Source: a virus. Taken from it: DNA of 23,726 nucleotides. Location: positions 1 to 23,726 of the IMG/VR virus record IMGVR_UViG_3300046002_005177; one strand, written 5' to 3'. The notes beneath the pieces are model-generated. The model had not been told where the DNA came from and searched no databases. It saw only the letters and a list, made by a program, of their open reading frames with translations. The position numbers and the translations under genes were made by a program. Below are positions 1,934-20,744 of the stretch, in pieces. The number at the start of each line of letters is the position of its first letter. The stretch's first letter is position 1.

Positions 1934-2482
1934 TTACTTAGCTTCAAGAACTATATCTAGATAGTTACATTTGAATCCTAAGCTAAATGATGTATATGTT
2001 GGGTTATTATTGGTGTAATTCAATTCTAGTTCAGAGAAAGACGTGAATAAAACCTCCTGGAAAGTTACTGACATAACTATATTACCCTCATTATCCATTA
2101 TTCTAAGCGGAAGTGATTGTACGAATACTTGATCGTTAGCAAAATTAAGGAAGTCCAAAACAGTATCGAGCATTATAAAATAATTTATAAATCCATCGGC
2201 CATCTTAAAATTCATCGTGAATTCCTTAGTGAAAAGATCCTGTATAGGGGTAGAGCTCTTATAAGCTATTTTTTTACCTAAATTCCTAACCTGCTCAACA
2301 GAATCTATGGAAAGCCCAGGAAATCCAACAGATTGTATTGTGCTATTTACATATTGGGAAACGTCATCAAATGGAATTGGTTGTTTCTTAATATAGTTCT
2401 CATACTTCTTTGTCACTCTTTCGGAAAAGAAACCTCTTGGGTAATTGAAGTAAAAACTATTTGATTTCGGATTGAGTAACAT
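1934..2482 (-). CDS. tail-tube-fold baseplate or tube protein (T4 gp19/gp54-like)
   Basis: This 182-aa protein has a pattern that can be laid over T4 gp19: a GFPGLSID turn (about 53-60, compare ALPAG in gp19), a beta strand then DLFTKEFTMNFKM, a helix with VLDFLNF (compare KFVDWQS), and a C-terminal strand pair SFSELELNYTNNNPTYTSFS (compare VGELQLDWDSNNEIQTFEV). gp19 forms the inner tail tube, and gp48 and gp54 carry the same fold at the tube/baseplate interface. The extra 50 N-terminal residues and the location beside probable baseplate genes favour a tube-initiator or baseplate role over the main tube protein (inference). The ATG lies within the final codons of an open frame that trails the upstream 787-aa gene. 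Confidence 0.6.
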   Translation of the reverse strand: MLLNPKSNSFYFNYPRGFFSERVTKKYENYIKKQPIPFDDVSQYVNSTIQSVGFPGLSIDSVEQVRNLGKKIAYKSSTPIQDLFTKEFTMNFKMADGFINYFIMLDTVLDFLNFANDQVFVQSLPLRIMDNEGNIVMSVTFQEVLFTSFSELELNYTNNNPTYTSFSLGFKCNYLDIVLEAK

Positions 2483-4932: not shown

Positions 4933-5787
4933 TTATTTTCCGAATTGTAAAAACTTAGGTGAATAATGAATTCCAAATCCAATATAAAATCCAGGTGAAA
5001 GTCCAGCAGCAGATCCAGAAATTCCATATCCGACCTGAACCCCTAGTCCAAATTCCTTTCTAGCTGATTTTAAAGCTTTTCTAGTATCTGCATTGTCAGT
5101 TATATCAAAAGAGTTAATGTCATTAAAGGTTAATCCGGGGTAAGTTGTGGTTACTCTTGTCATCATTCTTTTGGTTTTGGGATCTCTGTATATTCCCGTT
5201 GTAATATCTATATTTTGTTCTAGATTTAGAGAGGTAAGTCCAGGCAAAATTGTAGATATGTATTTAGTTGAGTCCATGGGATCAACACGAAGACTTATCG
5301 TATATGGTGTTTTCCCTGTTATTTTTAGCTTATTATTTCCTGGCATCTGTGGATTATGTAAAAAGTTAATAGATTCGTCTCCATTTGGATCCTTTACAAT
5401 GGTGGATGCTATCTTAACACTATCTCTAATTTCAGTAACGATATTTATTACCGAGTTTGGTGTGTTTCCTCTTCCGCTAGATTTTAAACCTAATTGATGT
5501 ATTAGATCTTTTTGACTTTTGGAAAGTTCTGAAGCTTTTAATTCATAAGCTGATTTCTCCTGGATTAAATGTCCATTCTCGCTTTTAATAGTTCTTACAC
5601 TATCTAATGATGCCAAATAGTTATTGTGCTCTCTTTTAGCCTCTGCTTCCATATGGGCAGTCTCTCCGCATTGTTTTAAAAACATTAGAATCAAAACAAC
5701 AATTACAGCAAGCATTGAAAATCTGCTGCTTAGTACCGACGATACTTTTGAAAATGTATCTTTATTTAATAGTTTCATATACAGCAT
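4933..5787 (-). CDS. membrane-anchored coiled-coil protein with beta-rich C-terminus (spanin-like architecture)
   Basis: This 284-aa protein has one strong hydrophobic segment (about 24-38, FSMLAVIVVLILMF), preceded by basic residues, so the N-terminus is probably cytoplasmic. A hydrophilic, probably coiled-coil stretch follows (about 45-100), then a mixed region (about 110-235). The C-terminal end alternates Gly and hydrophobic residues (FGLGVQVGYGISG, 246-258, and PGFYIGFGIHYSP, 265-277), like strands of outer-membrane proteins. An inner-membrane anchor, periplasmic coil and outer-membrane-seeking tail is what a spanin acting in lysis would need, but homology is not shown. A tail-associated or secreted protein is the alternative. 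The start is uncertain: ATG 5787 overlaps the upstream gene by 26 bases, whereas Met4 (5778) overlaps by 17. It ends 11 bases before the 787-aa gene. Confidence 0.65.
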   Translation of the reverse strand: MLYMKLLNKDTFSKVSSVLSSRFSMLAVIVVLILMFLKQCGETAHMEAEAKREHNNYLASLDSVRTIKSENGHLIQEKSAYELKASELSKSQKDLIHQLGLKSSGRGNTPNSVINIVTEIRDSVKIASTIVKDPNGDESINFLHNPQMPGNNKLKITGKTPYTISLRVDPMDSTKYISTILPGLTSLNLEQNIDITTGIYRDPKTKRMMTRVTTTYPGLTFNDINSFDITDNADTRKALKSARKEFGLGVQVGYGISGSAAGLSPGFYIGFGIHYSPKFLQFGK

Positions 5788-6050: not shown

Positions 6051-7802
6051 TTATGCTATGAAAGTGGGTGCGGTTTTGCCAATTAGTACTGCTTTCCCAG
6101 ATACTGAAACAATGCTTCCCACACTATATCTATCGGTCAATGTTATGTATCCACTAATACCGTCACACGTTTTCCAAAATAGTCTAGGATTTCCGTTTGT
6201 AGTACTAGCAGAGCCAACAAAGGTTAGATCAACATAGCAACTTTCGGTGGGAAACGCGTTCATTGAAGGCTGATATCTAAATCTCATAAAATATTGGATG
6301 GGCGCTACTGTTGTTCTTCCCCTCACTCCTGCTGTAAAATCCCAATAATTAAATACTAATCCAGCTATTTTATAAACTTGGCTAGAACTGGTAATATCAT
6401 TCAGGAATATTCTATATGTATTAGTATATCCTGCATTATAAAGTCCTTCCACATTTTGCTCATATGATGTTGGGATTCTAAGGAAAACCTCATAGCTAGC
6501 AGGAAGGTTATAAGCAGTAGGTGTAACTAGAATCAGATTACTGTCCCAAAGAGAAACTGAGGTTAAATCTATTACATTATAAACCGTTGGGGTAAATGAT
6601 GTGGGTGCTTCCCAAATTCTCGCATTCAAGGTAATTGTTGAGGCTCTGACCTCTTTTACTCTCTTGACCGGATAAAGATAAGGTCCTCCGGTAGCTCCCG
6701 GAGCCTGTCCTCCTGTAGAGCCAAATGTGGTCTGAATATGTTTTCCTGAAGAAACAGATCCTCTTGCTTTAGCCGAAAATATTGGTGCGTTCTTAAGATC
6801 GAAAAATTCAAAGACTGAATCCTGTACACTAGAACCTAGTATGTTTATACCTGCAGTGGATGTAGATACACCAGAGGGAGTGAATTTCCAAGCTTTAAAA
6901 ACAGGAAAACTGCCGAATGGAACGAGCCCATCTATTTGTATTTTTATAGGGATCCTAGAAATAAAGCTTGACGAGGAAAGTACTAGGTTAGAGGAAGATA
7001 TCGAAAGCTGTCCACCAACACCAATAGTCGTATTTGAATTCAGATAAAAATCGCCTGTTCCCCCTATAGTAACAGCGGAAGCTGAATCTATAACAGCTTG
7101 ATCCCCATATAGTATTGTTCTTGCTGTGTATGAATCTATAGTGATCCCGTCCTTTGCAGATAGCTCAAAGCTACCTGTTGAAGAGTATCTCAAAGAAGCA
7201 GAATTACCTGTTGTCGTCCAGTAGAAACCGGGTACACCCGATGATACTGCTCCTGTTTTAGAGAAAGTTAATATAGGTCTTGTTGTTTGATCATCAGTAG
7301 ATATCAATAACTTGCTTCTACTTGGATTTATTCCCGATATCGAGGGATAATCATCTCCAATAACTAAAGATGTATCAGATGCAGTTAAACCAGCACTTAT
7401 GCCTATTGCATACTTATCAGTTACACCTCCAGGACCTAGGATTGGTGAATATACAGAAAAATATGGTGACGTAAATAACGAATAGCCCGTATATAGCCAA
7501 GAACCTGTAGTCCCTAGATAATTTACCCGATAGTCACTAGTATTAGAATCTATCCATAGATCGAAAGGATTACCTGAAGTTGGTGAGTCATCAGATTTAT
7601 ACCAAAGGGTACCTCTTAAACCAGTAGCTCCAGTAGTTCCTTTTTTTCCTGATGGTCCATCATATCCAGCTGAACCCTTAGGTCCTTGATGCCCGTTGGG
7701 ACCAACTGCAAAAGAAATTATCTGATCAAAATTATAATTGATCTTTTTCTTTATTTCCGAAGCTGAATCACCAGCAAAAATGTATTTAGTATTAAAGTGC
7801 AT
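6051..7802 (-). CDS. collagen-like tail fibre protein, third of three paralogues in transcription order
   Basis: This 583-aa protein begins with a short anchoring segment containing KINYNFDQI (about 20-28), then eleven Gly-X-Y triplets (34-66) ending GLRGTLW. A DLWIDSNTSDYRVN segment follows, of the type after collagen repeats in many phage fibres. The middle part (about 90-260) shares the SKLLISTDDQTTRPILTF and PGFYWTTT pattern with the two upstream paralogues, and a later element (VFEFFDLKNAPIF) matches theirs too. The C-terminal part after about residue 390 seems unlike the other two and may be a separate receptor-binding or tip domain. Such fibres are expected to be trimeric and to be attached to the baseplate through the N-terminus (family knowledge). 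It starts 3 bases after the upstream paralogue stops. Confidence 0.8.
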   Translation of the reverse strand: MHFNTKYIFAGDSASEIKKKINYNFDQIISFAVGPNGHQGPKGSAGYDGPSGKKGTTGATGLRGTLWYKSDDSPTSGNPFDLWIDSNTSDYRVNYLGTTGSWLYTGYSLFTSPYFSVYSPILGPGGVTDKYAIGISAGLTASDTSLVIGDDYPSISGINPSRSKLLISTDDQTTRPILTFSKTGAVSSGVPGFYWTTTGNSASLRYSSTGSFELSAKDGITIDSYTARTILYGDQAVIDSASAVTIGGTGDFYLNSNTTIGVGGQLSISSSNLVLSSSSFISRIPIKIQIDGLVPFGSFPVFKAWKFTPSGVSTSTAGINILGSSVQDSVFEFFDLKNAPIFSAKARGSVSSGKHIQTTFGSTGGQAPGATGGPYLYPVKRVKEVRASTITLNARIWEAPTSFTPTVYNVIDLTSVSLWDSNLILVTPTAYNLPASYEVFLRIPTSYEQNVEGLYNAGYTNTYRIFLNDITSSSQVYKIAGLVFNYWDFTAGVRGRTTVAPIQYFMRFRYQPSMNAFPTESCYVDLTFVGSASTTNGNPRLFWKTCDGISGYITLTDRYSVGSIVSVSGKAVLIGKTAPTFIA

Positions 7803-7805
7803 ATG

Positions 7806-9521
7806 TTAAATTACTGTTGAACCTGTTGTGTACATTACCCCGCATCTATTTCCTATTATATTACCTCCATATGCGCTATAGTAGACTTTGAACCATCTAA
7901 CGCTAGAAGCAACTGAAGCTCCCTGATCTAGATTCATTATTGTAAAATCTATATGTGATGCTCCAACATTAATAGTTCCGGTTAAGTCTATGGCCTGAAA
8001 TGAACCAATTGGATCATCTGGTGCGACATTGAATGTGCTGGATGTATTTAAGCCAAGGAATCTAATAAACTTGGTTTCAGAATCGGTTCTAACCCTAAAG
8101 TTGATCGCCTCGTGATCGCCAAGCATATTGAGCCACCCCCCATTATTATTAGGGTTACTGCTACCACCCCCAGTCGCAGGAGTCCATAGGCAAATTCCAA
8201 CCTGGCTGCTAGGTCCATATGTAGAGGGGGAGATAACAAAATCAGTTCCGTTATTGCAGTTTATTCTTTGAGTTGAAGTTCCATCGGAATAAATTGCTCC
8301 TGGTATTGCAGTGTACCATTCGACATTTTCTTCTGAAGGTATTCCAATAGTTGTGGCGGTACCTGATACTGTCGAGGTAACAGGCTGAACAGATTGTATC
8401 GAATTGATTCTCTTATTATACCAAACTTCCCCATTAGCCTTAACATCAAATATATCTTCACTTAATGTGTAAGCTGAGAATAATCTGGAAACTCTGCTAG
8501 ATACTACCTCTGATCTATAAAATAAATTGTCAGCATTCGGCCTGGTACTTTCAAGCCAAAGCGGGGGTAGAGCACCGTTTAAACGGTTGGTAAAATTAAA
8601 AGTAACCGGCATTTCATAGTAGTTTCCTGCCGGAGTCATAAAATATCTTATATTTCTATTAGATAATAACAGGATTCCTGTTGATGTAGTATTTATTGTG
8701 AAATCACCTATGTTCGTTAACGAAAGACCCTGAGTTCCTGATAGGTTTAAATTAAAACCGGTAGATCTGTATCTTGAGTTATTCGCATCTTTACTAGTAG
8801 TAGAAAGTTTTAATTCTCCTAATGGAATATCGAAGAATAAAGAATCCCCGTTTTTCCAAGCAAGATTATATCTCGCTGATGGATTTGTTGATGAAAATGG
8901 CGTACTCCAGTAGAATCTTGGTGTCTTTGTATTAAAAGAAGTATTTGAAGAATAACGGCTCTTAGTGAACTCAATCAGATTTTTTCCGGTTGCCCCACCA
9001 TTAATTGCTATGACCAATTTTGAGTATTGTGGATTGGTAACCGATGAAGCTCCAGCCAATGGATCATCGCTAAGTACTAAAGTGTAATCAGCGGGATTCA
9101 CAGAGGTTAACACATATCCAATATATGAAGAATCTCCTGCGGAAGTAGGTAAATTCGGATAAGTTCTAAATAGATCTTGCGAAAGAATACCAAATCCATA
9201 CTGGCTCCATCCGGAAGATGAGTATTGATAGATTTGATTACCTGATCCGGCTTCTGTATTCAACCAGAAGTCATTATTAATATAGCCTGTTTGTCCCGGA
9301 TCTGTAGCCCCTATAGTCCATAGGCTTCCCCTACTACCAGGATCACCATAAGATCCGACAGGACCTGTCTTACCAGATTCCCCTTGTGGACCCAGATCTC
9401 CTATCTTTCCATAAGGACCCCCACCAAAAGTTAATATATCAGAAAAATTAGAGTTGGCCTTGTCAACTAAAACTTTTTGATTGTCTCCTTCTTCTATTCT
9501 TAGTAATTTTAAATCTGGCAT
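7806..9521 (-). CDS. collagen-like tail fibre protein, second paralogue
   Basis: This 571-aa protein has the same layout: an N-terminal segment with ANSNFSDIL (22-30), eleven Gly-X-Y triplets (35-67) ending GSRGSLW, then DFWLNTEAGSGNQIYQY and a SSSGW turn. The middle holds SKLVIAINGGATGKNLIEF and PRFYWSTP, and then the DIFDVKANGEVWYNKRI element. The C-terminal domain starting near EENVEWYTAIPG and ending RWFKVYYSAYGG resembles that of the upstream paralogue, with matching DG, VG-x-L and final VYY-x-AY patterns. It is probably a trimeric baseplate-attached fibre for host recognition. It begins after a 36-base gap, the largest in this block, in the context GTAGAAAAAGATG. Confidence 0.8.
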   Translation of the reverse strand: MPDLKLLRIEEGDNQKVLVDKANSNFSDILTFGGGPYGKIGDLGPQGESGKTGPVGSYGDPGSRGSLWTIGATDPGQTGYINNDFWLNTEAGSGNQIYQYSSSGWSQYGFGILSQDLFRTYPNLPTSAGDSSYIGYVLTSVNPADYTLVLSDDPLAGASSVTNPQYSKLVIAINGGATGKNLIEFTKSRYSSNTSFNTKTPRFYWSTPFSSTNPSARYNLAWKNGDSLFFDIPLGELKLSTTSKDANNSRYRSTGFNLNLSGTQGLSLTNIGDFTINTTSTGILLLSNRNIRYFMTPAGNYYEMPVTFNFTNRLNGALPPLWLESTRPNADNLFYRSEVVSSRVSRLFSAYTLSEDIFDVKANGEVWYNKRINSIQSVQPVTSTVSGTATTIGIPSEENVEWYTAIPGAIYSDGTSTQRINCNNGTDFVISPSTYGPSSQVGICLWTPATGGGSSNPNNNGGWLNMLGDHEAINFRVRTDSETKFIRFLGLNTSSTFNVAPDDPIGSFQAIDLTGTINVGASHIDFTIMNLDQGASVASSVRWFKVYYSAYGGNIIGNRCGVMYTTGSTVI

Positions 9522-9545
9522 CTTTTTCTACGGAATCTTAATAAG

Positions 9546-9564
9546 TTATTGTATATATCAATAA
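9546..9564. other. short AT-rich inverted repeat at the first/second fibre junction
   Basis: TTATTG and CAATAA are separated by seven A/T bases and overlap the stop codon of the 525-aa gene. It could form a weak 6-bp hairpin in the mRNA. It has no G/C-rich stem, so it is unlikely to be a terminator. Confidence 0.25.
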
Positions 9565-11135
9565 GTGAAAGATCCCCCAGAACCTCCGGTAGATCCAATG
9601 GCACCGATTGACGAGTAAGGTGCATAAGCACGGTAGTAAACTGTGGTTAGCCCAGATCCAGTCACGCCTCTAGCAATAGTAAGATCAACAGTTGGGGATA
9701 GGAAAGGTAGCGTTACCTTGGTCACGCAAGAAGCTGAAGCTCCTGTACCTACGCCAATAAATTTAAACCCAGAAGCTGATGTTGTTGGGGAATCAGAGCT
9801 ATTATGAACTGTTATATCTATAGATTCCCCCATTTGAAGTCCTCCTGACCCGCCCCATCCTAAATTTGGATCGTTATATAATCCTAATCCAACATGCTGG
9901 CCTGAGACTATAGCTGGATTAATTATCATGGTATTTCCGTCATTCAGTGGGGATCCTACTGTTGCAGAAGTTCTAGAAATAAAATACCAATTTATTATTG
10001 TTGAACTGCCCCCGCTTATTCCAGTAGTTCCTGCATTAATCCCAGCATAAGTTATACCCTCTATTGTCTTATTCATCTTAAGCTTACCTCTAGTTGAAAG
10101 CCAAACTTGATTTCCAGAGGAGTTCTCTAAAGTTAAGTGATAAACGCTTTGCGAAAGAGTGCTATGCGAGTCTCCTGTTCGGGTAGATCTAAATCCAGCG
10201 GTTCCCGATGGAGTTATCTGTGTGTGTGGGGTTTCTGATGCTGCGTAAGTTGTAGCCCTAATAGCATCTAAGAAACCCCCGGAGGAGCCAGAGGTATTAA
10301 GGACCTTACTGGTTACTAAAAGATTTCCTGTTGAATTTATATTATATCCACCGGTAGCATATATTCCGGAGCTAGAATCTAAACCATAGTTTATCTCAGT
10401 TCCCTTTTCTGATTCCATTTTAAGTGACAAAAAGTGAGATTGGAATCCACCCGATGCGCCAATCAGTAAACCAGCACCAGGAACTCTCATACCAAGAGAA
10501 TTATCTGTTGGTATAGTAGAAGGCCAATAAAAATATGGGTGCAGAGAATAATCAGCTATAGTTCCGTTAGCTACATCGCTTCTTGAAAATTCTAAAAGAG
10601 GTGAATCGTTTACAAGAGAGTCATTTGATATCGAAAATTTAGATAGCAATTCATTTACTACCCCATTTTCTGGAGTAACGTCACTTAATATAAATAAGTA
10701 GTTCTTAGGTAATACCTGTGACATTTGTATAGCAGTACCAGTTCCTCCTACGTAAGTACTACCTCCGCTATATAAAAAACTATCAGTTCTAAATAAACCC
10801 GCTCCTGTTCTCACATTATATCCTGTGGAATTCCATCCGGTTAGTTCTAATGTGTATATTTCGCTAGATGCTGAATCTATCCAGTAATCTCCTTCCTGTG
10901 CATATCCAGCAGGGGCTAGAGAAGAAACGAACCATCTCGTTCCCCTTGGACCGGTTAATCCAGTAGGTCCGAATGTTCCCGAATCACCTATTGCTCCTCT
11001 GTCACCAGTAGGTCCTAAAGTACCCTGACTTCCCCCATGTAATTCGACTACCTCATCGAAGTTATTATTAAGCTTATTTATTAGTCGGCTTTGTTCGTCG
11101 TTGTAATCTAAGGCCTGTATATTAGTATTTGGCAT
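9558..11135 (-). CDS. collagen-like tail fibre protein, first paralogue
   Basis: This 525-aa protein has NNNFDEV (23-29), eleven Gly-X-Y triplets (35-67) ending GPRGTRW, and a GDYWIDSASSEIYTLELTGW segment that is a clear example of the module after collagen repeats in phage fibres. The central region carries SKFSISNDSLVNDSPLLEF and PYFYWPST, then YHLTLENSSGNQVWLSTRGK, matching the elements in the two downstream paralogues. The C-terminal domain (INWYFISR to TTVYYRAYAPY) pairs with that of the 571-aa protein. It ends in a Gly/Ser-rich tail (GSTGGSGGSFTY). It starts 3 bases after the 1977-aa gene stops, so it is probably co-translated from the same message. Confidence 0.8.
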   Translation of the reverse strand: MPNTNIQALDYNDEQSRLINKLNNNFDEVVELHGGSQGTLGPTGDRGAIGDSGTFGPTGLTGPRGTRWFVSSLAPAGYAQEGDYWIDSASSEIYTLELTGWNSTGYNVRTGAGLFRTDSFLYSGGSTYVGGTGTAIQMSQVLPKNYLFILSDVTPENGVVNELLSKFSISNDSLVNDSPLLEFSRSDVANGTIADYSLHPYFYWPSTIPTDNSLGMRVPGAGLLIGASGGFQSHFLSLKMESEKGTEINYGLDSSSGIYATGGYNINSTGNLLVTSKVLNTSGSSGGFLDAIRATTYAASETPHTQITPSGTAGFRSTRTGDSHSTLSQSVYHLTLENSSGNQVWLSTRGKLKMNKTIEGITYAGINAGTTGISGGSSTIINWYFISRTSATVGSPLNDGNTMIINPAIVSGQHVGLGLYNDPNLGWGGSGGLQMGESIDITVHNSSDSPTTSASGFKFIGVGTGASASCVTKVTLPFLSPTVDLTIARGVTGSGLTTVYYRAYAPYSSIGAIGSTGGSGGSFTY

Positions 11136-11138
11136 TTT

Positions 11139-14100
11139 TTATATCTTAGCTATTCTTATGTTAAACATTAGAGAGTAATAGAAACCAACTTCTGTTGAAT
11201 ATTCAAACTCATATATTAAATCTGTGATTGGTGTTAATTTATAGTTGTTATCTATAAAATATTCCATTTTATATCGGTCAGTTGAAAACAAATCACCTCT
11301 AACTATTTCTGAAGTTGGTATTGTTGTATTTGCAGTCTTTTTAACATACAGGTCAAATACATCGCCTCTGTATATAGGAGAAATGTTTAAATCTATATAG
11401 GTATTAATATCATCATTTATCGATAAAGGATCGCCCACACCAAACTGTGATATCATATTATCTATGAACACCTTCTTTACGCCAGAATTCAGTAGATATC
11501 TTCTAAGTATCCTATCGACTCTTATTATGCCTTTTATTTTTCTCTGATCCGGAAAGTTCTGCCATATAACTTCAGCATTAGAAAATATCTTAAGATCAAG
11601 CTTATTGTAATCTACTCCCGAAAGATATGGGCCAACAGAACCTATACCAGTTCCTGAATCGCTCTTACTTATTTCCTGAACACTCTTAATAAAGCTGTCA
11701 ATTCTAGAATTTAACCTTTTTACGTTTGTGCTACCAGTATTTCTAGAAATTTCAAGAGTTATATAATTATTAGCCTGTATAGGGTCAGGTGTCTGCATAA
11801 CTTTAGAACCAAAGAAAGTTTTATATTCTTTCATAGCTCTAGTACCTGCTACAGGAGAACCGCTATTAGTGCTAATGTATCTGTCATAATATCCAGGATC
11901 CCACGAAGAGGAGAATATATTAAAGTCCTTCCTTGATATTGGGGTTAATCCTATTAAAGGGTAAACCGGACCTTGCGGATAGGAACTTGCAGCAGCTAAT
12001 ATATTAGATCCTTCTGAAACTTTGGTGTATCCTAGATTTCTTGAAATGCCAAAATATTTTTTATCCGGAGCAAAGTTACAGTTCCTGAAAGAAAGATCTA
12101 TCGAATCTGATCCTACTAATGTGTCTGTCTTATCCCGATCGAAGTGGATAACCTTTCTGAATATAGGTTCATATTCTCCCGAATATCTGGTCAAGATCGA
12201 AGGCCTAGTTGGATCAGGTGTTCTTATATTATATCCGGTTTCTACTCTTGAACCCTTTAGTGTTTGCGGTCCACTATAATCTTTAAAAACCAGAGATCCG
12301 CTGGGTTTAGTTATTTTAGTTGGTCTTTCAAAATAAAGTTCAAATCCATTACTAGTAGATATTGTTGAGCTTGAATCCGTATCAAATTCATAAGTCGTAT
12401 ACTTTATGTATGGTGAGCTTCTGTTGAATTTTTCAGCTATATACGAAACGGAGCATCTTGAAAGTAATCCTTTATAGTAGTTAGATCCTCCGCTTATTTG
12501 TGTAACAGGATTTCCCCTGTATATTGAGGATGGTCCGACAGGAACTGTTGTTGGACTAGATACAGAAAAAGGAATGCTAAATAGGTATGACGATGCGGTA
12601 GAAACTTTACCGAATTCTATGAAGGTTGGTCCAACACCAGTTGGCCATGGATATGTTGCCGTTGAGGTAAAAGACGTGATGAAGCTTCCTATTCCAGTAG
12701 AGCTTAAACCACCAGTAGCACCGTCTGGATTGGGGACATAAACTGTGTGTATTTCTTCTCTTAAATCGGTATCATATTCGGGATTTCTTACTATATTTAT
12801 TACCCCCGTTGGTCTGGTTGTATTAACTACGCTTCCTGATGATAGGGAAAGATCTAAAGCAGCACTCAATTTTATATCATCTATCGAAAAAAACTTCTGT
12901 GAGGATACCAAAGGAGATTCTAGCTTCTCTTTATCATTTAGGGTATAAAGAAGGGTGTAATCTAAAACCGGATCTGCTTGACCCATTTGGTTATCTGTTC
13001 CTGCAGTAACGCTAATTATTTCAATTTCTGTTGGGGTATTTGTGGTAAATGAATATTGGGTTCCCACGCTATTAGCTTCGATTATCACGATAGCATCCCC
13101 TGCAGTAGCAAGATCTGATGAAAATGAATAGTTAGCATTGAATGCAGAACTATCTAGTATTGGGATTACCGTACTAATAATAAAGTCATCTGCAAAAGAC
13201 TGCCCACCAAGTCCGGCAGTAACGATAAAGCTTAGAGTTCCAAGTGGGGTCACTGTTGAAAACGCTGCGGGATCTACTAAAAGCGTATTGGGAGTCCAAC
13301 CGGTAAATTTGAGAACTATCTTTGCTTTAGTACCAGGAACAATAATCGTTGTTCCATCATATCCAAGATCAAATGCTTTCTGATCCTTTATTACCACATC
13401 ACAAACAAAAAGTACAAACTTCTGCTGATCGTTTTCTATTACCTCATACTTAACTGGGGCCTGTATAGTTGTGCTGTCTTCTTTCACCGCTCTTAATATA
13501 GCAGAAAATTTATAATCTTCGTAACCCCTGAAATTTTTTATATACCTGTCGGATTCAACCGATCCGTCAAAAAAAGTATCAGATCTTTTTTTCAGAACTA
13601 TTTTACAACCTCTGAATATTGTCTCATAGTACCCTGAAGCTTCACTATAAACTATAGGTGTGAAAAGCTCTTTTGTATAAAATGTATTATCACTAAACTC
13701 TGAATCATAATCGGAAGGCTCAACTGTAAAATACGAAGAAAGATATAAAGCATCGTCCGGATCTGCGCTTCTAGCTTTATCCAGATCTATTTTATATGGA
13801 AGATAACTATTCTGATCGTTCATAAACTCCTTAGGGAAATATCTAGGTGGTTGTTCTAATAAAAACCATTCATGGGTTAGATATTTAGGATCAGGTGTTA
13901 TTCTCTCAAAACTCGGTGAAAAATTAGTAGGGGAGAAAGCTGGGCTGCTGTTTAGTCTATATCTATTTCCTCTGGAATCTGTACCTAAAGAAGATCCCCA
14001 TTTACTTATATAAGGAACTATTTTTGATATATTGGCTCTTTGCGTTGTGAAATTTTCTTTCAAATATTCGTATTCCGTATCCAGTTTACCGTAATAAAAA

Positions 14101-17072
14101 ACTTCCTCCTTAGTCGGATTTACGTTTTTAGGATCTAGCAGAATTCCCTGGATACCTATAAATCCATTAAAAGCTTCTAGGTCTCTAGTGTATACTATAT
14201 CAGAATATGATGCAGTTGGTGAAGTATAAGTAGCGTTAGAATATTGAGCAGGAAAAACAACGACATTCCCTGATGATGAAGTTCTTGACTGAATAGTGTT
14301 TAATACTGCAGATGCTGTGCTAAGATTTAAGCTGGGATCGGAAACAGAGAATGATGTAGATCCGGTAACTCCATAGAATAAATCTCCTGCATTATAGATG
14401 TTTCCGGTTCCCCCATAACTTATCTGTCCTCTTTTTACAAAATACGGAATATTAGGCTCTATCGAGTTTTCTGTGTTGGGGTTTATTTGGAAATATTTAT
14501 ACGTCTCAGGAATTGGTGAGTAGCTGTAATCAGAACTCCAAAAATCAAAATTAAATTCTTTGGTATCAAAGAAAGAAAATACACCTAAATTTAGAGATGC
14601 AGAATCATATACATTAAAAGAACTATCAGATCCTAGATTTACCTGAGAATATATGTCCTGTAGATTTAATACAAGCTTAAATTCAAAATCATTAAATCCC
14701 ATAACCTTTCGGGTAACCTGATCTATCGCAGGGTCATCAACATACTTATTGACTGAATCTATCATAGAGAATCCAGATTCGGTCTTAATGTAATATCCAG
14801 CTAAAACCTGATTTGAATACTTACTATCGAAAATTATTCTATTGTTTTTATTAACAGTTCCGCCGATAAAATTTACATTCTTCTTTATTTCTGAAGCATC
14901 GGTTCCGTTAATCTTAACATACCCGGGATAATTAAATGTCGAGTATTCTTTCCAACTGCTGGAAATATCAGGTGAAGTTGTGAATTGCATACCCCCGGTA
15001 GGACCGGTAGATCCTGCTATTGAATAATATGTATTATTATAAAGAACTATGTCATCAGATACGTAATTTGATTTATTATCCCATGATCCCTTATACTTCT
15101 TAATAAATTCAGGATAGTTGTCAAATATGGATATAGAATAGGAATTATTTCCATATAGTCCAGAATTCTTAACCCTAATAATAGAAGACGCATTTTGTTG
15201 CGCATAATCCATTGTTGAAGTATCGACATCAGCAAGTACCGACGAAAGGGCTAAAGCTATTTCAGAGCCTTCCTGAAGTAAATTACCACTTGTTGAATAT
15301 CCGAAAGCATTAAAGTAATAAGAATTCCCCGTAGAGTAATAAGATCCACCCGTCCATACCATCATTGATGAGTAATCTGCAGAGCTTATCAAATCATATC
15401 TTCTAGACCCATCTTTTCTTGATCCGTTTGGCCAGTATAACTTTAAAGTTAAAGGTATATTATTGTCGTACGACTTTAGAAATTCTATCTCGGTATAAGC
15501 TTTGCCTGCTTCTGCTGGCAAAACCCCTTTAATAGTAACAAGCTTATCATCGCTTCCTGTGAAGTTAAGTAGATCTATGGTCTGATTTTGTATTACCAGG
15601 GATCCTGAAGTTGCTCCTGTTGATCCCGTTGCCGAAAATTGGCCAGTGTTATAATCGAAAGGTCCATATGAATATTTGGGTTCAGAACCACCATACCCAC
15701 CGTAATCTTCGGTTCTTTTTAAGCTATAAAAACTGTCATTCTTATCAGTCAGATAAAATAATTTATTTGGGTCCAACAGATTAACATTATCCGATCCAGG
15801 TAAAAACCCGGTCGCATTTTCATAGAATAATCTAATTCCTGATGTAGCTCCTACTTTATAGGGTTGATTATTATAATAATACCCAACATTATCTCTTGAA
15901 GGTATTGGGGTGTTTTCATTTCCTGCTAAATTTCTATACTCGTAGAAGAATTCGCCATTCGTTCTAATTGTTGCAATATCATTTCTAGAAACGTACATTC
16001 CAACATATCTGTTTATCGTATATAAATCGGAATCAGCATCATCAAAGAAAAACTCAAGATTTAATAAGTTTGGACACACTATTCCATTTCTAGAAAATCC
16101 AGATGTTATATAATCTTCTAAATCAATCATAGGATCAGACTTAGCAGATGAAAGATACTGGTTTAAAAGTTCTCCTTTTTTTGTATAAATACCATCGGAT
16201 ACACTAACACCCTTATAGTAAGTGTATGAATCATAGCCCCAGCTTACCTCTAATGGTGAATTCGAAAATTGCTTATTGTTAAATATAGATCTTATGTATT
16301 TACCAATTTTTGTATCCTCTCTAAGATCAAAAGTTTTTATAGCGGTTGCATTATTTAATATCTTATCCTTGAAAGTTGATGCCACATCATTTACCAATGG
16401 TAGATTTTCAAGTTCTGCATAAACAGCAACCTTACCTGTACCGCTTATTATGGAATAAGTTGGATTATTTGTGTTACCTTGGAAGATTTGCCCATCGTAA
16501 TAATATAGATCATTACCCGCTGAATCCTTACCGTATGATATTTTAAATTCGGTTGTGGTATCATAATCTGCAATAACCTTATATTTCTTTCTTTGATTTA
16601 TTCGGGTAACATTTGTTGAGTATGGATAATCCAGCGGATTATCTAGCTTGAAGATAACGAAGAAATCTGGTATCTCGTTCTTAATCCAGATCGGAGCAAA
16701 ATAGCTAAAATCCTCCGGATAGTTTTTATCTATTAATGCAGAAGCACCACTAGCATAGAAGAAATCATATTGATCAGAAAAATATTGTGCTGGTTCATTT
16801 TCCCCATTTGTAAATTTACCAACCTGAAATATTATATCATTAGAAATTTTACCATTAGAGAAAAAAGTAGAGACGTCACTGGCATATGAATTTTCACCCG
16901 TTACGGTGTATTTTTTAAATGCGTCGTTACTCAAGGTATTATTAACGTCCATTGAGTTAAACCAAACACCACCTTGTGAATCTACTGAAATTTTAAAATT
17001 TCCAGTCAATTTTGGATTTGTTCTGATAACAGAAAAAGAAGAGTTATAATCAAAAAGTCTGGATTGAGACAT
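11139..17072 (-). CDS. giant virion structural protein with carbohydrate-binding-like insert
   Basis: This 1977-aa protein is the largest in the window. The N-terminus (MSQSRLFDYNSSFSVI then RTNPKLTGN, 17-25) precedes a long series of beta-rich, Tyr/Ser/Asn-rich regions with no signal peptide or membrane segment. A module at about 655-712 has the spacing of small chitin/cellulose-binding domains: an N-terminal Trp (W664, GSWDNKSNYVSDDIVLYN), TYYSIAG, a Gly-Pro-Thr-Gly loop and a closing Trp (W707, SSWKEYS). A Gly/Thr-rich segment (about 475-500) and several later repetitive beta regions suggest elongated domains. It sits directly before the fibres and after two other large virion proteins, so a baseplate or proximal-fibre scaffold is likely. 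No T4 counterpart is recognised. The final residues (YSLMFNIRIAKI) are hydrophobic and probably form a strand. Confidence 0.75.
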   Translation of the reverse strand: MSQSRLFDYNSSFSVIRTNPKLTGNFKISVDSQGGVWFNSMDVNNTLSNDAFKKYTVTGENSYASDVSTFFSNGKISNDIIFQVGKFTNGENEPAQYFSDQYDFFYASGASALIDKNYPEDFSYFAPIWIKNEIPDFFVIFKLDNPLDYPYSTNVTRINQRKKYKVIADYDTTTEFKISYGKDSAGNDLYYYDGQIFQGNTNNPTYSIISGTGKVAVYAELENLPLVNDVASTFKDKILNNATAIKTFDLREDTKIGKYIRSIFNNKQFSNSPLEVSWGYDSYTYYKGVSVSDGIYTKKGELLNQYLSSAKSDPMIDLEDYITSGFSRNGIVCPNLLNLEFFFDDADSDLYTINRYVGMYVSRNDIATIRTNGEFFYEYRNLAGNENTPIPSRDNVGYYYNNQPYKVGATSGIRLFYENATGFLPGSDNVNLLDPNKLFYLTDKNDSFYSLKRTEDYGGYGGSEPKYSYGPFDYNTGQFSATGSTGATSGSLVIQNQTIDLLNFTGSDDKLVTIKGVLPAEAGKAYTEIEFLKSYDNNIPLTLKLYWPNGSRKDGSRRYDLISSADYSSMMVWTGGSYYSTGNSYYFNAFGYSTSGNLLQEGSEIALALSSVLADVDTSTMDYAQQNASSIIRVKNSGLYGNNSYSISIFDNYPEFIKKYKGSWDNKSNYVSDDIVLYNNTYYSIAGSTGPTGGMQFTTSPDISSSWKEYSTFNYPGYVKINGTDASEIKKNVNFIGGTVNKNNRIIFDSKYSNQVLAGYYIKTESGFSMIDSVNKYVDDPAIDQVTRKVMGFNDFEFKLVLNLQDIYSQVNLGSDSSFNVYDSASLNLGVFSFFDTKEFNFDFWSSDYSYSPIPETYKYFQINPNTENSIEPNIPYFVKRGQISYGGTGNIYNAGDLFYGVTGSTSFSVSDPSLNLSTASAVLNTIQSRTSSSGNVVVFPAQYSNATYTSPTASYSDIVYTRDLEAFNGFIGIQGILLDPKNVNPTKEEVFYYGKLDTEYEYLKENFTTQRANISKIVPYISKWGSSLGTDSRGNRYRLNSSPAFSPTNFSPSFERITPDPKYLTHEWFLLEQPPRYFPKEFMNDQNSYLPYKIDLDKARSADPDDALYLSSYFTVEPSDYDSEFSDNTFYTKELFTPIVYSEASGYYETIFRGCKIVLKKRSDTFFDGSVESDRYIKNFRGYEDYKFSAILRAVKEDSTTIQAPVKYEVIENDQQKFVLFVCDVVIKDQKAFDLGYDGTTIIVPGTKAKIVLKFTGWTPNTLLVDPAAFSTVTPLGTLSFIVTAGLGGQSFADDFIISTVIPILDSSAFNANYSFSSDLATAGDAIVIIEANSVGTQYSFTTNTPTEIEIISVTAGTDNQMGQADPVLDYTLLYTLNDKEKLESPLVSSQKFFSIDDIKLSAALDLSLSSGSVVNTTRPTGVINIVRNPEYDTDLREEIHTVYVPNPDGATGGLSSTGIGSFITSFTSTATYPWPTGVGPTFIEFGKVSTASSYLFSIPFSVSSPTTVPVGPSSIYRGNPVTQISGGSNYYKGLLSRCSVSYIAEKFNRSSPYIKYTTYEFDTDSSSTISTSNGFELYFERPTKITKPSGSLVFKDYSGPQTLKGSRVETGYNIRTPDPTRPSILTRYSGEYEPIFRKVIHFDRDKTDTLVGSDSIDLSFRNCNFAPDKKYFGISRNLGYTKVSEGSNILAAASSYPQGPVYPLIGLTPISRKDFNIFSSSWDPGYYDRYISTNSGSPVAGTRAMKEYKTFFGSKVMQTPDPIQANNYITLEISRNTGSTNVKRLNSRIDSFIKSVQEISKSDSGTGIGSVGPYLSGVDYNKLDLKIFSNAEVIWQNFPDQRKIKGIIRVDRILRRYLLNSGVKKVFIDNMISQFGVGDPLSINDDINTYIDLNISPIYRGDVFDLYVKKTANTTIPTSEIVRGDLFSTDRYKMEYFIDNNYKLTPITDLIYEFEYSTEVGFYYSLMFNIRIAKI

Positions 17073-17096: not shown

Positions 17097-20000
17097 TTAA
17101 AAATTAAGTGCTTTAACGCCGCTATCAAAATTAGGAGCTACTAAAGTGTCATTTTGGTAAGATCCGCTGACCTGAACATCAAAAGAGAATGAGTCATCGT
17201 TTCTTATTTGTATATCTATACCTATTTTCTTCGTGTAAGTTATATTGGATAAATTTCCTGCCTTTCTCCAACCTCCAATATATCCCAATTTATCAACTGC
17301 TCTAAATTGGAATATGACTGGAATGTTTATAGCATTTGTTTCTCCTTCTCCTAGATACGTAACAGATAATGCGGTTGTTCCAGGTACCTGTAATACAGTA
17401 TTTGAAATAGGGCCAAGATAAAGATAAGCACCACATGAATATTTACCTATTAGATATTCATCGTTAGAAGAAAACCCTAATTTATCAGCATACATATTAT
17501 CTTCCCTAGCAGCAGTTGCCCCTGTTGCAAAATCTATCGGGGTTCTTGATGCTTGCTGAACCCAATATTGAGGTAAAGTTGTATCGCCCCAGAATGTTTG
17601 TGTGTGTCTGAAAGGTGCATAGCTTACTGAAGTTGAGCTGTAAGGCTTAACCAGCTCAGAATAACTTGTGAAAGAATACGTGCTACCTACAGATAGAAGA
17701 TAAGGATGACCTGTGTGTATACAGAATTCCGATAACTGTCCATTACCAACTGGTGATCCACCAGTAGAACCTGTAAATGTTCCATTCCAAACTGCTGCTG
17801 CAGTTCCGCCTATTACCGTAGCATAACTTGAAGATAAAGTAGGATCATAGGGGGTAAATATCGTTCCATTCTGAGGATAAACCCCGGGCGATCCAAAGTT
17901 ATTCTGACTAGAAGAAGAAATCCCATTGTATGTATAAGATGAGCTGTATGAGTTAGAAAAATATTGTCCTAAATCAGCCAATGTTGAATTATAATAAAGT
18001 ACTTGATTGAATCCAATATTTCTGTATCTAGGATAAAGGTATTGTGAATATGCACTCGATGAAGCATAAGGAGGTGCCTGTCTAAAATCTGTTGAACTCT
18101 CAACATCATTAGTTACTAGAGCTGTTAGAGATATAGGACCGTCCCCATATCTTAGATTAGTGTTATATCCCTCGGGAAATGCAGAAGATATAGAAGAAGG
18201 TGCTGCAGTTTCCAATCCTCCAGGAATTATCGAAGCAAGTTCAACAGGGGAAGCTTGTGCGTTAAATAACTGGATACTATATGATATAGAAGCTATCTTA
18301 CCTGCATCCGTAGTAGTTGCGCTAGTGAAAATCTCATTATAAAATCCTGCATTAAGTTTGATAGTAGATCCTTTAGAAACATTTATCTTGTTATTACTTG
18401 AATCTACAATGTAAACCTGTAATACTCCTTTAGCGTTACTTAATTCGGCTTTCATTAATGTTAACTGATTCTGAAGATCTGTTAACTTATCAAATAGGTT
18501 TAAAACGGTTCCTGAATTAGTATAGAATCCGCTGGCAATGCCTACTGCATTATGATAATAAGTTGTCTCTCCTACTGTGAATTGTTCAGATAGATGCGTT
18601 GGAAGTCCTTGAGCATTTAATTCTGCTTGCATTCTAGTGACTGCAGAGTCTTCGGTATTAGTTCTTAGTGCTACATCTACGCCGGTAACTGATAAATTAT
18701 CGGGAAATGAAATTATAACCGACTGGGAATAATCGGAAGTTAATGGGTTATCTGGCCAACCTGCTTCAGAGATTGAAGCGATTTGAATTTCTACCCTTTC
18801 GCCTTTTGTGATAGCTAGATCTAACTGATTAATATTTTGAACATCTGAATTACCCGGATCTTCAGGTGCCCAAATGTAAACTCCTTTCCTAGGATCATAA
18901 ACTTTTTTCCTAATATCAGTTTTATATTCCGTCCAGTTTGAGAATGAAGCATTTTTTCTAGTTCCGTCGTTATCTAGAAATTCTATCTGATCGTTAGGCT
19001 GTGCAGATCCGCTATCGCTTAGATATCTATATCTAACTTTAAATTGAATAACTTCTTGAGCTCCTGTAGATGGACTAATTTGTGGTGAAGGAAATGCCCA
19101 AAATCCTCTAACTCTATATTTAGGTGGTGTTATTATTTGCGGAACATCCACACTTAAAGTTTTAACCTCAGAGACTAGAGATGCATAAAGTTCCACCTTC
19201 TTAACTCTCTCCTGAATCAATGAGCTTAGGTTTGCTCTAACAGCCTGTACATTAACCCCAATAGGAGTTGTTTTTTGTCCGGTTACACTAACCGGGCTTA
19301 AATTAGATCCTAATATAGGACTAGAATTTACATTTGTTAACTCTAAGGATCCTTCATTTATAGAAGAAAGTCCAGTATTTAATTGAAGCTTAGCTTGGTT
19401 GATAGATTCATCTAACTGATTTATCTCGCTCTTTAGGGAAGACTTCATCGATAACTTGTCATTAACAACCCTTATTGGGGTTGAATCAGTTACCTGTTTA
19501 TTTATCTGTATTACTTTGAAATTAGTCTGGGCAATAGCGGGTGAAGATGGGACTAATCCCTCAATAGCAGGAACTTTATTTTCTTTCGCCGCTCCTAAAA
19601 ATATCTTACCTAAATCAGATACCTCGCTTAGATAATATGTTTCTAGATTCACTACCGTACCGCTAGAATTTTTAGTCTGAAGCTCATTGCTCCAAAACAC
19701 TATTCCTGTTGACCAAACTGCTCCGACAATATTAAAGTTATCATCTATGGCTTTAAAGAAAATCCCTTGTCTTTCATTGTATCCTATGTTAACTTGTGCA
19801 GATCTAGGACCAAAATCTGTTGATGCTATAGAAAGGGTTTTTCCGATCATAATAGGCTGATATCCAGAAACTCTTTTAGCTTGAATTGATGATTGGTCCC
19901 TATTAACCTCGGTTACTTGATATTGTGTTCCATCCTGTGTAGAAATCTTATCACCTACGTTAAGTGATCTGCCATCAACAAATGTACTGAGAGTATCCGT

Positions 20001-20744
20001 ATAAGTGAGTTTATCTAGCTTATAATTTCTTCTAGTTTCCTGAAATTGATTTCCAGCTGTATCTGTTATAGTAACTAGATCGTCATAGAAACCAGTTACA
20101 CTAAATTCTCCGACAAATCTTATTGTTCTAAGTGGCAGCTGCTCGATTGATTCGTCAACAAAATACCCAATACCATTATCTGTTAAGTCCTGAATGAATT
20201 GGTTATAAGAAAGATCATTTCTCCCCTTTAAGCTAGTATCGAAATAGTTTTTCTGATCATCAGTTGTAGTGTTAGCAATTATTCTCTTAACTACTATTCT
20301 ATCTGCCGCATCAGGAACTTGTCCAGTTACATTTACATTTATGTATAATAAAGGGGTCAAGAAACTCTCGAAGAACCAATTATCCTTAACATCGAATGTG
20401 CTAGGTACATCTAGATTTGTTAATCTAGCTGGTTCTTTCAAAGGTTCACTTTTGTAAACCTGAGAGTATGTTCCGTCTGGATTTCTAACCGTTGCCGAGG
20501 ATTCACTAATACCTGCTAAAGCCTGTATGTTATTGTCTATCCTTTGAATCTCACCTCTTAAAAATCCATAAGAAGGGATATTTTGATTTTTCGGTAAATT
20601 GTTTTCGTCAAGGAATTCTATCGTAACCGTGTTATTAGTTGATACCGCAACTTCATTTAAACCGTTTATGATCTCTAATGAATTTTTTTGCAGTCTCAGA
20701 AACTGAGCTATTAGCGAACTTATTGAATTTTGTGTGCCTGCCAT
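17097..20744 (-). CDS. large virion structural protein with coiled coils and fibronectin-III-like segment
   Basis: This 1215-aa protein starts MAGTQNSISSLIAQFLRLQK in the context TTAAAAATTAAATGG. The N-terminal 90 residues are partly helical, followed by beta-rich domains. Probable coiled coils lie at about 433-460 (LKSEINQLDESINQAKLQL), 508-531 (QERVKKVELYASLVSEV) and 748-775 (KLTDLQNQLTLMKAELSNAK). Between the last two, about 535-680 resembles fibronectin III-type domains of tail proteins: KYRVRGFWAF, FKVRYRYLSD, and then RVEIQIASISEAGWPDNP. The C-terminal third is Tyr/Ser/Gly-rich and ends in a beta region (IDIQIRNDDSFSFDVQVSGS). A trimeric, elongated baseplate or fibre component is the likely role. 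I recognise no specific gene. Confidence 0.72.
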   Translation of the reverse strand: MAGTQNSISSLIAQFLRLQKNSLEIINGLNEVAVSTNNTVTIEFLDENNLPKNQNIPSYGFLRGEIQRIDNNIQALAGISESSATVRNPDGTYSQVYKSEPLKEPARLTNLDVPSTFDVKDNWFFESFLTPLLYINVNVTGQVPDAADRIVVKRIIANTTTDDQKNYFDTSLKGRNDLSYNQFIQDLTDNGIGYFVDESIEQLPLRTIRFVGEFSVTGFYDDLVTITDTAGNQFQETRRNYKLDKLTYTDTLSTFVDGRSLNVGDKISTQDGTQYQVTEVNRDQSSIQAKRVSGYQPIMIGKTLSIASTDFGPRSAQVNIGYNERQGIFFKAIDDNFNIVGAVWSTGIVFWSNELQTKNSSGTVVNLETYYLSEVSDLGKIFLGAAKENKVPAIEGLVPSSPAIAQTNFKVIQINKQVTDSTPIRVVNDKLSMKSSLKSEINQLDESINQAKLQLNTGLSSINEGSLELTNVNSSPILGSNLSPVSVTGQKTTPIGVNVQAVRANLSSLIQERVKKVELYASLVSEVKTLSVDVPQIITPPKYRVRGFWAFPSPQISPSTGAQEVIQFKVRYRYLSDSGSAQPNDQIEFLDNDGTRKNASFSNWTEYKTDIRKKVYDPRKGVYIWAPEDPGNSDVQNINQLDLAITKGERVEIQIASISEAGWPDNPLTSDYSQSVIISFPDNLSVTGVDVALRTNTEDSAVTRMQAELNAQGLPTHLSEQFTVGETTYYHNAVGIASGFYTNSGTVLNLFDKLTDLQNQLTLMKAELSNAKGVLQVYIVDSSNNKINVSKGSTIKLNAGFYNEIFTSATTTDAGKIASISYSIQLFNAQASPVELASIIPGGLETAAPSSISSAFPEGYNTNLRYGDGPISLTALVTNDVESSTDFRQAPPYASSSAYSQYLYPRYRNIGFNQVLYYNSTLADLGQYFSNSYSSSYTYNGISSSSQNNFGSPGVYPQNGTIFTPYDPTLSSSYATVIGGTAAAVWNGTFTGSTGGSPVGNGQLSEFCIHTGHPYLLSVGSTYSFTSYSELVKPYSSTSVSYAPFRHTQTFWGDTTLPQYWVQQASRTPIDFATGATAAREDNMYADKLGFSSNDEYLIGKYSCGAYLYLGPISNTVLQVPGTTALSVTYLGEGETNAINIPVIFQFRAVDKLGYIGGWRKAGNLSNITYTKKIGIDIQIRNDDSFSFDVQVSGSYQNDTLVAPNFDSGVKALNF

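Follow-up and report, generated by a model that had tools for sequence, protein, structure and literature searches.

What sets the length of a collagen-like stalk whose sequence varies almost freely, and why should three neighbouring fibre genes share one length? These questions are raised by fibres C, B and A, three adjacent genes named here in their reading direction, in the virus record IMGVR_UViG_3300046002_005177 of IMG/VR, analysed as a single window of 23,726 bases. Each of the three proteins carries an NxNF motif followed, after eight residues, by 11 uninterrupted Gly-X-Y triplets (33 residues) and a W, and the distance from the F of NxNF to this W is 42 residues in all three. We find that the collagen length rule is real and unusually strict in this tandem family of collagen-stalked phage fibres, and we favour, with moderate confidence, the reading that C, B and A form three homotrimeric fibres whose stalk length is selected and fixed.

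Searches of phage records gave no match for C and matched just a short stretch of LR756500.1 for A and B; relatives were therefore taken from IMG/VR, with C, its 284-amino-acid (aa) and 1215-aa neighbours and the N-terminal module as starting points. The resulting 153 stretches comprise loci on 138 IMG/VR contigs, 12 phage records, two contigs of metagenome-assembled genomes and the window itself. The N-terminal profile matches 267 open reading frames (ORFs), and a fibre is present on 131 stretches; a scan of genome contigs yielded two distant loci, with a fibre found in neither. Loci flanked by the 1977-aa gene at one end and by either the 284-aa or the 787-aa gene at the other were counted as complete, which gave 93 (38 three-gene, 24 two-gene and 31 single-gene). 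Many contigs are near-copies of one phage, and raw counts are thus not independent. Family alignments of C, B and A were thinned to 35, 35 and 29 sequences from 51, 50 and 40. Two further alignments were used: A4, with 31 C, 11 first copies of two-gene loci and 22 B (from 34, 16 and 36 thinned, three short C of 394–396 aa being omitted), and A5, with 27 of 28 A and 14 of 15 second copies (a 1159-aa A being omitted).

Collagen in phage and bacterial fibres is usually regarded as a length-variable spacer. Here, about 150 different 33-residue collagens, near-random at the X and Y positions, keep one length across deep divergence and gene duplication. The F-to-W distance is 42 in 220 of the 267 module-bearing ORFs, which hold 153 different 33-mers, and X/Y identity between pairs has a median of 18%, with 81% of pairs below 30%. 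Among the 28 dereplicated genomes that retain all three copies after thinning, the F-to-W segment is equal across C, B and A in every one, and the collagen is the sole segment so matched throughout, as against 1, 0, 3, 0, 0 and 0 genomes for the next six inter-landmark segments. Both the tandem triplication and the constraint on collagen length described in the initial annotation are borne out. Gap intervals tell the same story: across the C, B and A family alignments (99 sequences) there are none in residues 27–67, compared with 10, 12 and 8 in residues 68–110, that is 30 distinct intervals in 43 columns, and more further on. At an equal per-residue rate about 29 intervals would be expected in residues 27–67, by a hand estimate that ignores shared ancestry. 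A real and specific length constraint on the collagen part is supported by these data. It could be argued that the length was simply inherited, triplet insertions and deletions being rare and length itself not selected, given that the copies share ancestry and that the N-terminal part is also nearly free of such changes. However, the near-random X and Y positions, the contrast in gap intervals with the adjoining columns and the fact that lengths do change on deep branches make plain inheritance without selection on length very unlikely.

What is constant is the number of residues rather than the number of intact triplets. The +42 register from F is kept in every copy of all 38 complete three-gene loci, and a W occupies this position in all three copies in 35 of them, the A copy having I or F in the other three. 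Strict counts of 11/11/11 are found in 13 of the 38, and at least one copy has another uninterrupted count in 25; the deviating copy is nearly always an A with 10 triplets (often 11/11/10), in which the last Gly is replaced and the spacing kept. Strict counts vary because Gly is lost without a change in length: its occupancy across 220 fibres is 99–100% at triplets 1–10 and 77% at triplet 11. The proposed fixed triplet number accordingly stands as a residue length constant among paralogues, but not as a strict count. A common rotational phase for stalks of 8, 11 and 14 triplets was considered and dropped as number play.

The rule extends to loci with fewer genes. Both copies have an F-to-W distance of 42 in 11 of the 24 two-gene loci; the other 13 have distances of 50 and 52, and here each copy measures 43 residues from first Gly to W, the difference lying solely in the linker from F to Gly (7 or 9). 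Among the 31 single-gene loci the distance is 42 (33 collagen residues) in 23, 48 in two and 33 in two, and in the remaining four the W is missing and the first aromatic residue lies near 47–49. Two cases fall outside these length classes, namely Tenacibaculum phage pT24 and the second fibre copy of 3300027770_000074, which is broken after 3 triplets (an 86-aa ORF) through either a sequencing error or gene decay. Collagen length thus differs between deep clades (24, 30, 33, ~39 and 43 residues) and not inside them. The initial annotation had explained the equal lengths by a need of the three chains to match; since 23 of the 31 single-gene loci keep the same 33 residues, such matching is not needed for the length, and because the rule also holds with one gene, the idea of a heteromer exceeds what the equality can support. 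Three parallel fibres, the other arrangement put forward there, may be what the locus encodes.

Constancy in single-gene relatives is also what would be expected if folding set the length, the triplet number having to keep two flanking trimeric domains in helical phase or to give stability, with no external ruler. The discrete lengths of other clades (24, 30, 39 and 43 residues) and the near confinement of Gly loss to the distal end, with spacing kept, would agree with this. Yet homologues with the same flanking motifs have 8 or 10 triplets, and collagen proteins of Escherichia coli prophages are described as varying in collagen length within one architecture (PMC3368898), and we consider a folding limit improbable.

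With respect to the history of the copies, profile comparison of the post-collagen parts aligns 409 columns between C and B, 469 between B and A and 413 between C and A, on which basis the three appear to be full-length homologues, one family with diverging heads. From residue 270 on, 226 columns still align between C and B and 282 between B and A, and the link between C and A in this region is provided by B and the two-gene relatives; direct C–A tail matches found there by hhalign, many of 8–30 columns, were taken as artefacts of gappy columns. The three proteins had been called very divergent outside their shared motifs, which is true of the far-diverged heads but not of the proteins as a whole, homologous as they are over nearly their whole length. 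Nor are the middle domains independent and unrelated; by profile comparison they too are homologous.

A quick maximum-likelihood tree was built from 263 of the 267 fibres (four under 240 aa being left out), thinned to 146 rows, with the collagen removed and the root not inferred. It sorts the copies by position: third copies group with the second copies of two-gene loci (Shimodaira–Hasegawa-like approximate likelihood-ratio test, SH-aLRT, 99), second copies form a group (93), as do first copies (94), and single-gene rows lie outside. The two-gene loci with 43 residues belong to another group together with some single-gene rows (98), and because they group apart, this clade probably represents a separate duplication that inherited the length of its own ancestor. 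This topology suggests stepwise tandem duplication, from one gene to C plus A and then to C plus B plus A, and the quick tree supports this order; as the root was not inferred, gene loss may have acted instead of gain.

A competing reading of the equal lengths, which we regard as possible but unlikely, is that C, B and A contribute one chain each to a single heterotrimeric fibre in the manner of C1q, the single-gene relatives representing a homotrimeric ancestor. The genes, up to three in number, lie in strict order, on the same strand and closely spaced; the collagen is equal in all multi-gene loci and the other segments are not; and changes in length are confined to the branches between deep clades, with none within the 33-residue multi-gene part of the tree (57.5 changes per column summed). 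Possible precedents by analogy are three consecutive tail proteins of the virophage DSLV2, reported to form a 1:1:1 heterotrimer (PMC12724248), and the ordered triplets of collagen-like genes reported for Pasteuria ramosa (PMC13233619). However, single-gene loci have the same length, likewise unchanged over 11.1 changes per column, and all three collagens are positively charged on average (mean net charge of the 33-mers +1.5, +1.5 and +2.6), with no charge complementarity; between C and B the charges show a weak positive correlation (0.38, p 0.02) that does not favour either model. Moreover, the trimerisation domain of the collagen XVIII type, which the post-collagen module of C weakly resembles, is homotrimeric.

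Nor do the three proteins co-vary in total length (Spearman 0.16, 0.29 and 0.20; p 0.39, 0.12 and 0.29; 31 distinct length triples from 40 genomes). A ranges from 548 to 1159 aa and C and B vary much less; a C of 394–396 aa stands beside B and A of 559–576 aa in five of the 40 genomes, and an A of 1159 aa beside a C of 532 aa in two. Since total lengths are uncorrelated and A varies far more than C or B, these data speak for separate tips. A stronger form of the heterotrimeric reading, in which an obligate heterotrimeric collagen fibre evolved stepwise from a homotrimer through a two-chain to a three-chain state, parallel to C1q, and the register of three separately evolving chains froze the length, could draw on the collagen being the one segment matched between paralogues in all 28 genomes, but remains doubtful. 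If the fibres were nonetheless heterotrimeric, they would offer an uncommon natural example of chain selection in a viral collagen. In either case the locus offers a clean natural system for asking what sets fibre length and whether paralogous fibre chains mix.

We propose that C, B and A are paralogous fibre proteins encoded by one operon-like block of virion genes in a large tailed phage, and that each most likely assembles as its own homotrimer. The N-terminal helix with NxNF would dock on the particle, and the 33-residue triple helix would serve as a rigid stalk of about 9.6 nm, at a rise of 2.9 Å per residue as used for the prophage fibres (PMC3368898). The W / D-x-W module would keep the three chains in register and nucleate the triple helix, and the beta-rich terminal head would bind the host or a partner. 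Purifying selection would act on stalk length and not on sequence; the constant stalk length hints at a molecular ruler, which would hold every head equally far from the anchor, each duplicate having inherited the ruler while the heads drifted.

Single-chain models of C and A have a mean predicted local distance difference test score (pLDDT) of 67 and 63, a modest confidence that is as expected for intertwined trimers. Both show a helix within residues 14–28, a low-confidence collagen, a small beta module at about 68–121 and, beyond it, beta structure leading to a better-modelled end domain, which in C (residues 331–510) has a pLDDT mostly of 70–91. The module has invariant W4, P11, D19, W21 and W37 (alignment A6, 51 rows). 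Residues 63–116 of C weakly match the human collagen XVIII trimerisation domain (Z 4.0 and 3.8; root-mean-square deviation 2.4 and 2.8; 49–50 residues), a domain class described as trimerising collagens (PMC5126661), and on this modelled resemblance, together with its small size and fitting place, the module can be considered a putative trimerisation domain. As for the heads, no fold or function is claimed because no whole-model match is confident: Foldseek against the PDB gave none at an expect value (E) below 0.001, and the best VIA Z scores, 4.5 for A and 5.0 for C, went to phage tailspikes or capsid spike and Hsp70 substrate domains alike, so that an identity drawn from these matches, all at Z 5 or lower, was rejected. 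A Foldseek search of viral structures returned nine matches with E up to 0.001, mostly uncharacterised or named after fibres or collagen, at low template modelling scores.

Several points weigh against the three-homotrimer reading or narrow it. The N-terminal 26 residues are nearly gap-free as well (1, 0 and 0 intervals in C, B and A), and the distance from the initial M to F is 25–27 in all three-gene copies but one; because this part is almost equally free of insertions and deletions, the unit fixed in length is the whole base plus stalk and not the collagen alone. Homotrimers are the default for phage fibres, a general expectation rather than a result derived in this analysis, and a heterotrimer would equally predict paralogues of equal collagen length. 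Three copies in second position fall with the first copies (C) and not with B, so that the duplication history is not fully clean; the placement of several long rows is also unsure. The collagen XVIII match of C has a Z that the tool itself rates as low, the domain is not among the fold matches listed for A, and the A6 module profile gave ten weak matches to the PDB, all at E of at least 0.46 and none to collagen. Finally, a place on the virion is deduced solely from the neighbours, namely a tail-tube-like gene and the block common to the phages PAU and pT24.

By sequence, A, B and C are putative phage collagen-like tail fibres, in that each has a multi-triplet Gly-X-Y run. The shared motifs listed in the initial annotation are confirmed in the three genes and across the family: NxNF, RG-x-x-W, the D-x-W module and the inner landmarks show no or almost no variation in A4 (64 rows) and A5 (41 rows), with RG often RA in A5, and N23, N25 and F26 of C are invariant in A4; the N-terminus of C with NxNF is a putative anchor. 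The Pfam Collagen model PF01391 scores 20.8, 16.7 and 18.5 bits, below the gathering cut-off of 27.2 (E 3e-4 to 6e-3); the repeat is short. In PHROG the fibres match tail fibre families best, chiefly through the collagen part, and NCBIfam yielded just collagen adhesin models far below their cut-offs. By sequence, C has four weak matches in the PDB (E at least 0.045), three of which are to collagen or to a fusion with collagen. Pfam holds models of PfN, Pf2 and PfC, the domains of the EPcl type known from E. coli prophage fibres; these were not matched in A, B or C, for which Pfam gives Collagen alone, and 64 family members gave Collagen in 57 and four other families in one member each.

Parallels are available at several distances, although we found no publication on this fibre locus in the open-access literature searched. 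LR756500.1, Sphingomonas phage PAU (gp266) and Tenacibaculum phage pT24 (BPT24_179, annotated 'tail collar domain') share an NxNF-like motif, a short collagen, RG-x-x-W and the same neighbours, but have one long fibre gene (877–1789 aa); in LR756500.1 the gene order is unchanged and the one fibre, of 1789 aa, has 8 triplets, and PAU and pT24 have an interrupted collagen run that begins with 4 triplets. The EPcl fibres likewise have a collagen stalk flanked by an N-terminal part and a trimerising C-terminal part, yet their collagen is described as varying in multiples of three, whereas it is fixed here (PMC3368898). The P. ramosa genes resemble ours in forming ordered tandem triplets of paralogues on one strand, but are bacterial genes reported as multiplied over the genome, in contrast to a single phage locus (PMC13233619). 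The collagen XV/XVIII (multiplexin) trimerisation domain is, like the module of C, small and directly behind a triple helix; it belongs, however, to an animal protein, and a sequence match to the present module was not found. The tripartite tail of DSLV2 is also encoded by three consecutive genes, with a heterotrimer that is demonstrated there but hypothetical here, and the word collagen is absent from that paper (PMC12724248). FibU of Staphylococcus aureus phage 80alpha has a short collagen-like stretch (residues 178–208) in a baseplate fibre, but is described with an immunoglobulin-like N-terminal domain and as dimers in the map, unlike the fibres considered here (PMC7048315).

Table 1. Coordinates of the fibre genes, their parts and neighbouring genes in the window.
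Feature	Window coordinates	Strand	Basis or remark
Fibre C, 525 aa, first of tandem	9558..11135	-	ATG start, 3 bp after 1977-aa gene
C residues 1-34, N-terminal helix and NxNF motif, putative anchor	11034..11135	-	model helix 15-26
C residues 35-67, 11 Gly-X-Y triplets	10935..11033	-	length invariant
C residues 68-116, W / P / D-x-W / W module, putative trimerisation domain	10788..10934	-	invariant residues, weak fold match
C residues 117-525, beta-rich shaft and head	9561..10787	-	predicted model
Fibre B, 571 aa, second of tandem	7806..9521	-	begins 36 bp after C stop
B residues 35-67, 11 Gly-X-Y triplets	9321..9419	-	triplet count
Fibre A, 583 aa, third of tandem	6051..7802	-	begins 3 bp after B stop
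A residues 34-66, 11 Gly-X-Y triplets	7605..7703	-	triplet count
A residues 67-115, post-collagen D-x-W module	7458..7604	-	family alignment A5 and model
A residues 381-567, predicted beta domain at tip	6102..6662	-	pLDDT mostly 83-92, dips to 53; weak PDB matches, Z up to 4.5
1977-aa gene directly upstream of C, probably structural	11139..17072	-	syntenic with PAU gp265
1215-aa gene	17097..20744	-	conserved in PAU, pT24, PTm1, Lak and LR756500 phages
284-aa gene, other flank of tandem	4933..5787	-	served as synteny anchor
182-aa tail-tube-like protein	1934..2482	-	phrog_45, E 2e-10

The window contains 14 ORFs of at least 90 aa, the long ones on the minus strand (Table 1). Read in their direction they comprise the end of a gene of about 300 aa, genes of 734, 1215 and 1977 aa, fibres C, B and A, genes of 284 and 787 aa, the tail-tube-like gene and one for a RuvC-like protein. 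From the 1977-aa gene down to A the intergenic gaps are 3, 36 and 3 base pairs (bp), and because of this close spacing the C-B-A block looks like an operon; promoter- and terminator-like matches in the region were not more numerous than in shuffled sequence. Relatives of the 1215-aa protein occur in 31 phage records, among them Prevotella Lak phages, phages of Tenacibaculum (PTm1, PTm5 and pT24), Chryseobacterium phage MA9V, Flavobacterium phage MaF61, Sphingomonas phage PAU and uncultured huge phages; a PDB sequence search with its family gave a keratin match at E 0.4. Contigs with close relatives of the window reach 348,582 bases. Given the hosts of these relatives and the size of such contigs, the source is a large tailed phage, most likely of a Bacteroidota host.

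Twelve long records were searched whole: nine of the tandem type have exactly three full-module matches each and three single-gene ones have one, with no additional full module outside the tandem. Two of the nine also have weak partial collagen matches. The 430-kb record 3300034116_002156 (430,120 bases) has other collagen ORFs with partial matches, including, at a distance from the tandem, one of ~1161 aa in which several stretches are collagen-like (G002:C1:94552-97470), and a 373-kb record has one partial match outside its tandem.

Some minor variation among close relatives can be added. Fibre B of three of them has an extra C-terminal ~100 aa (L005:11609-13609, L010:11617-13620 and L012:11581-13587). 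The 1977-aa protein seems to end in an exchangeable cassette of ~700 aa; its full length is matched in L010 (85%), whereas the best segment of eight other close relatives covers only residues 1–1257 or 1–1242. The 284-aa protein, which has weak matches to DUF6808 and DUF6549, stays beside the fibres as far as LR756500.1 (35%). The RuvC-like gene (949–1656) has 73–95% identity in seven close relatives and 37% in L006 (19245–19910), as if swapped there for another allele.

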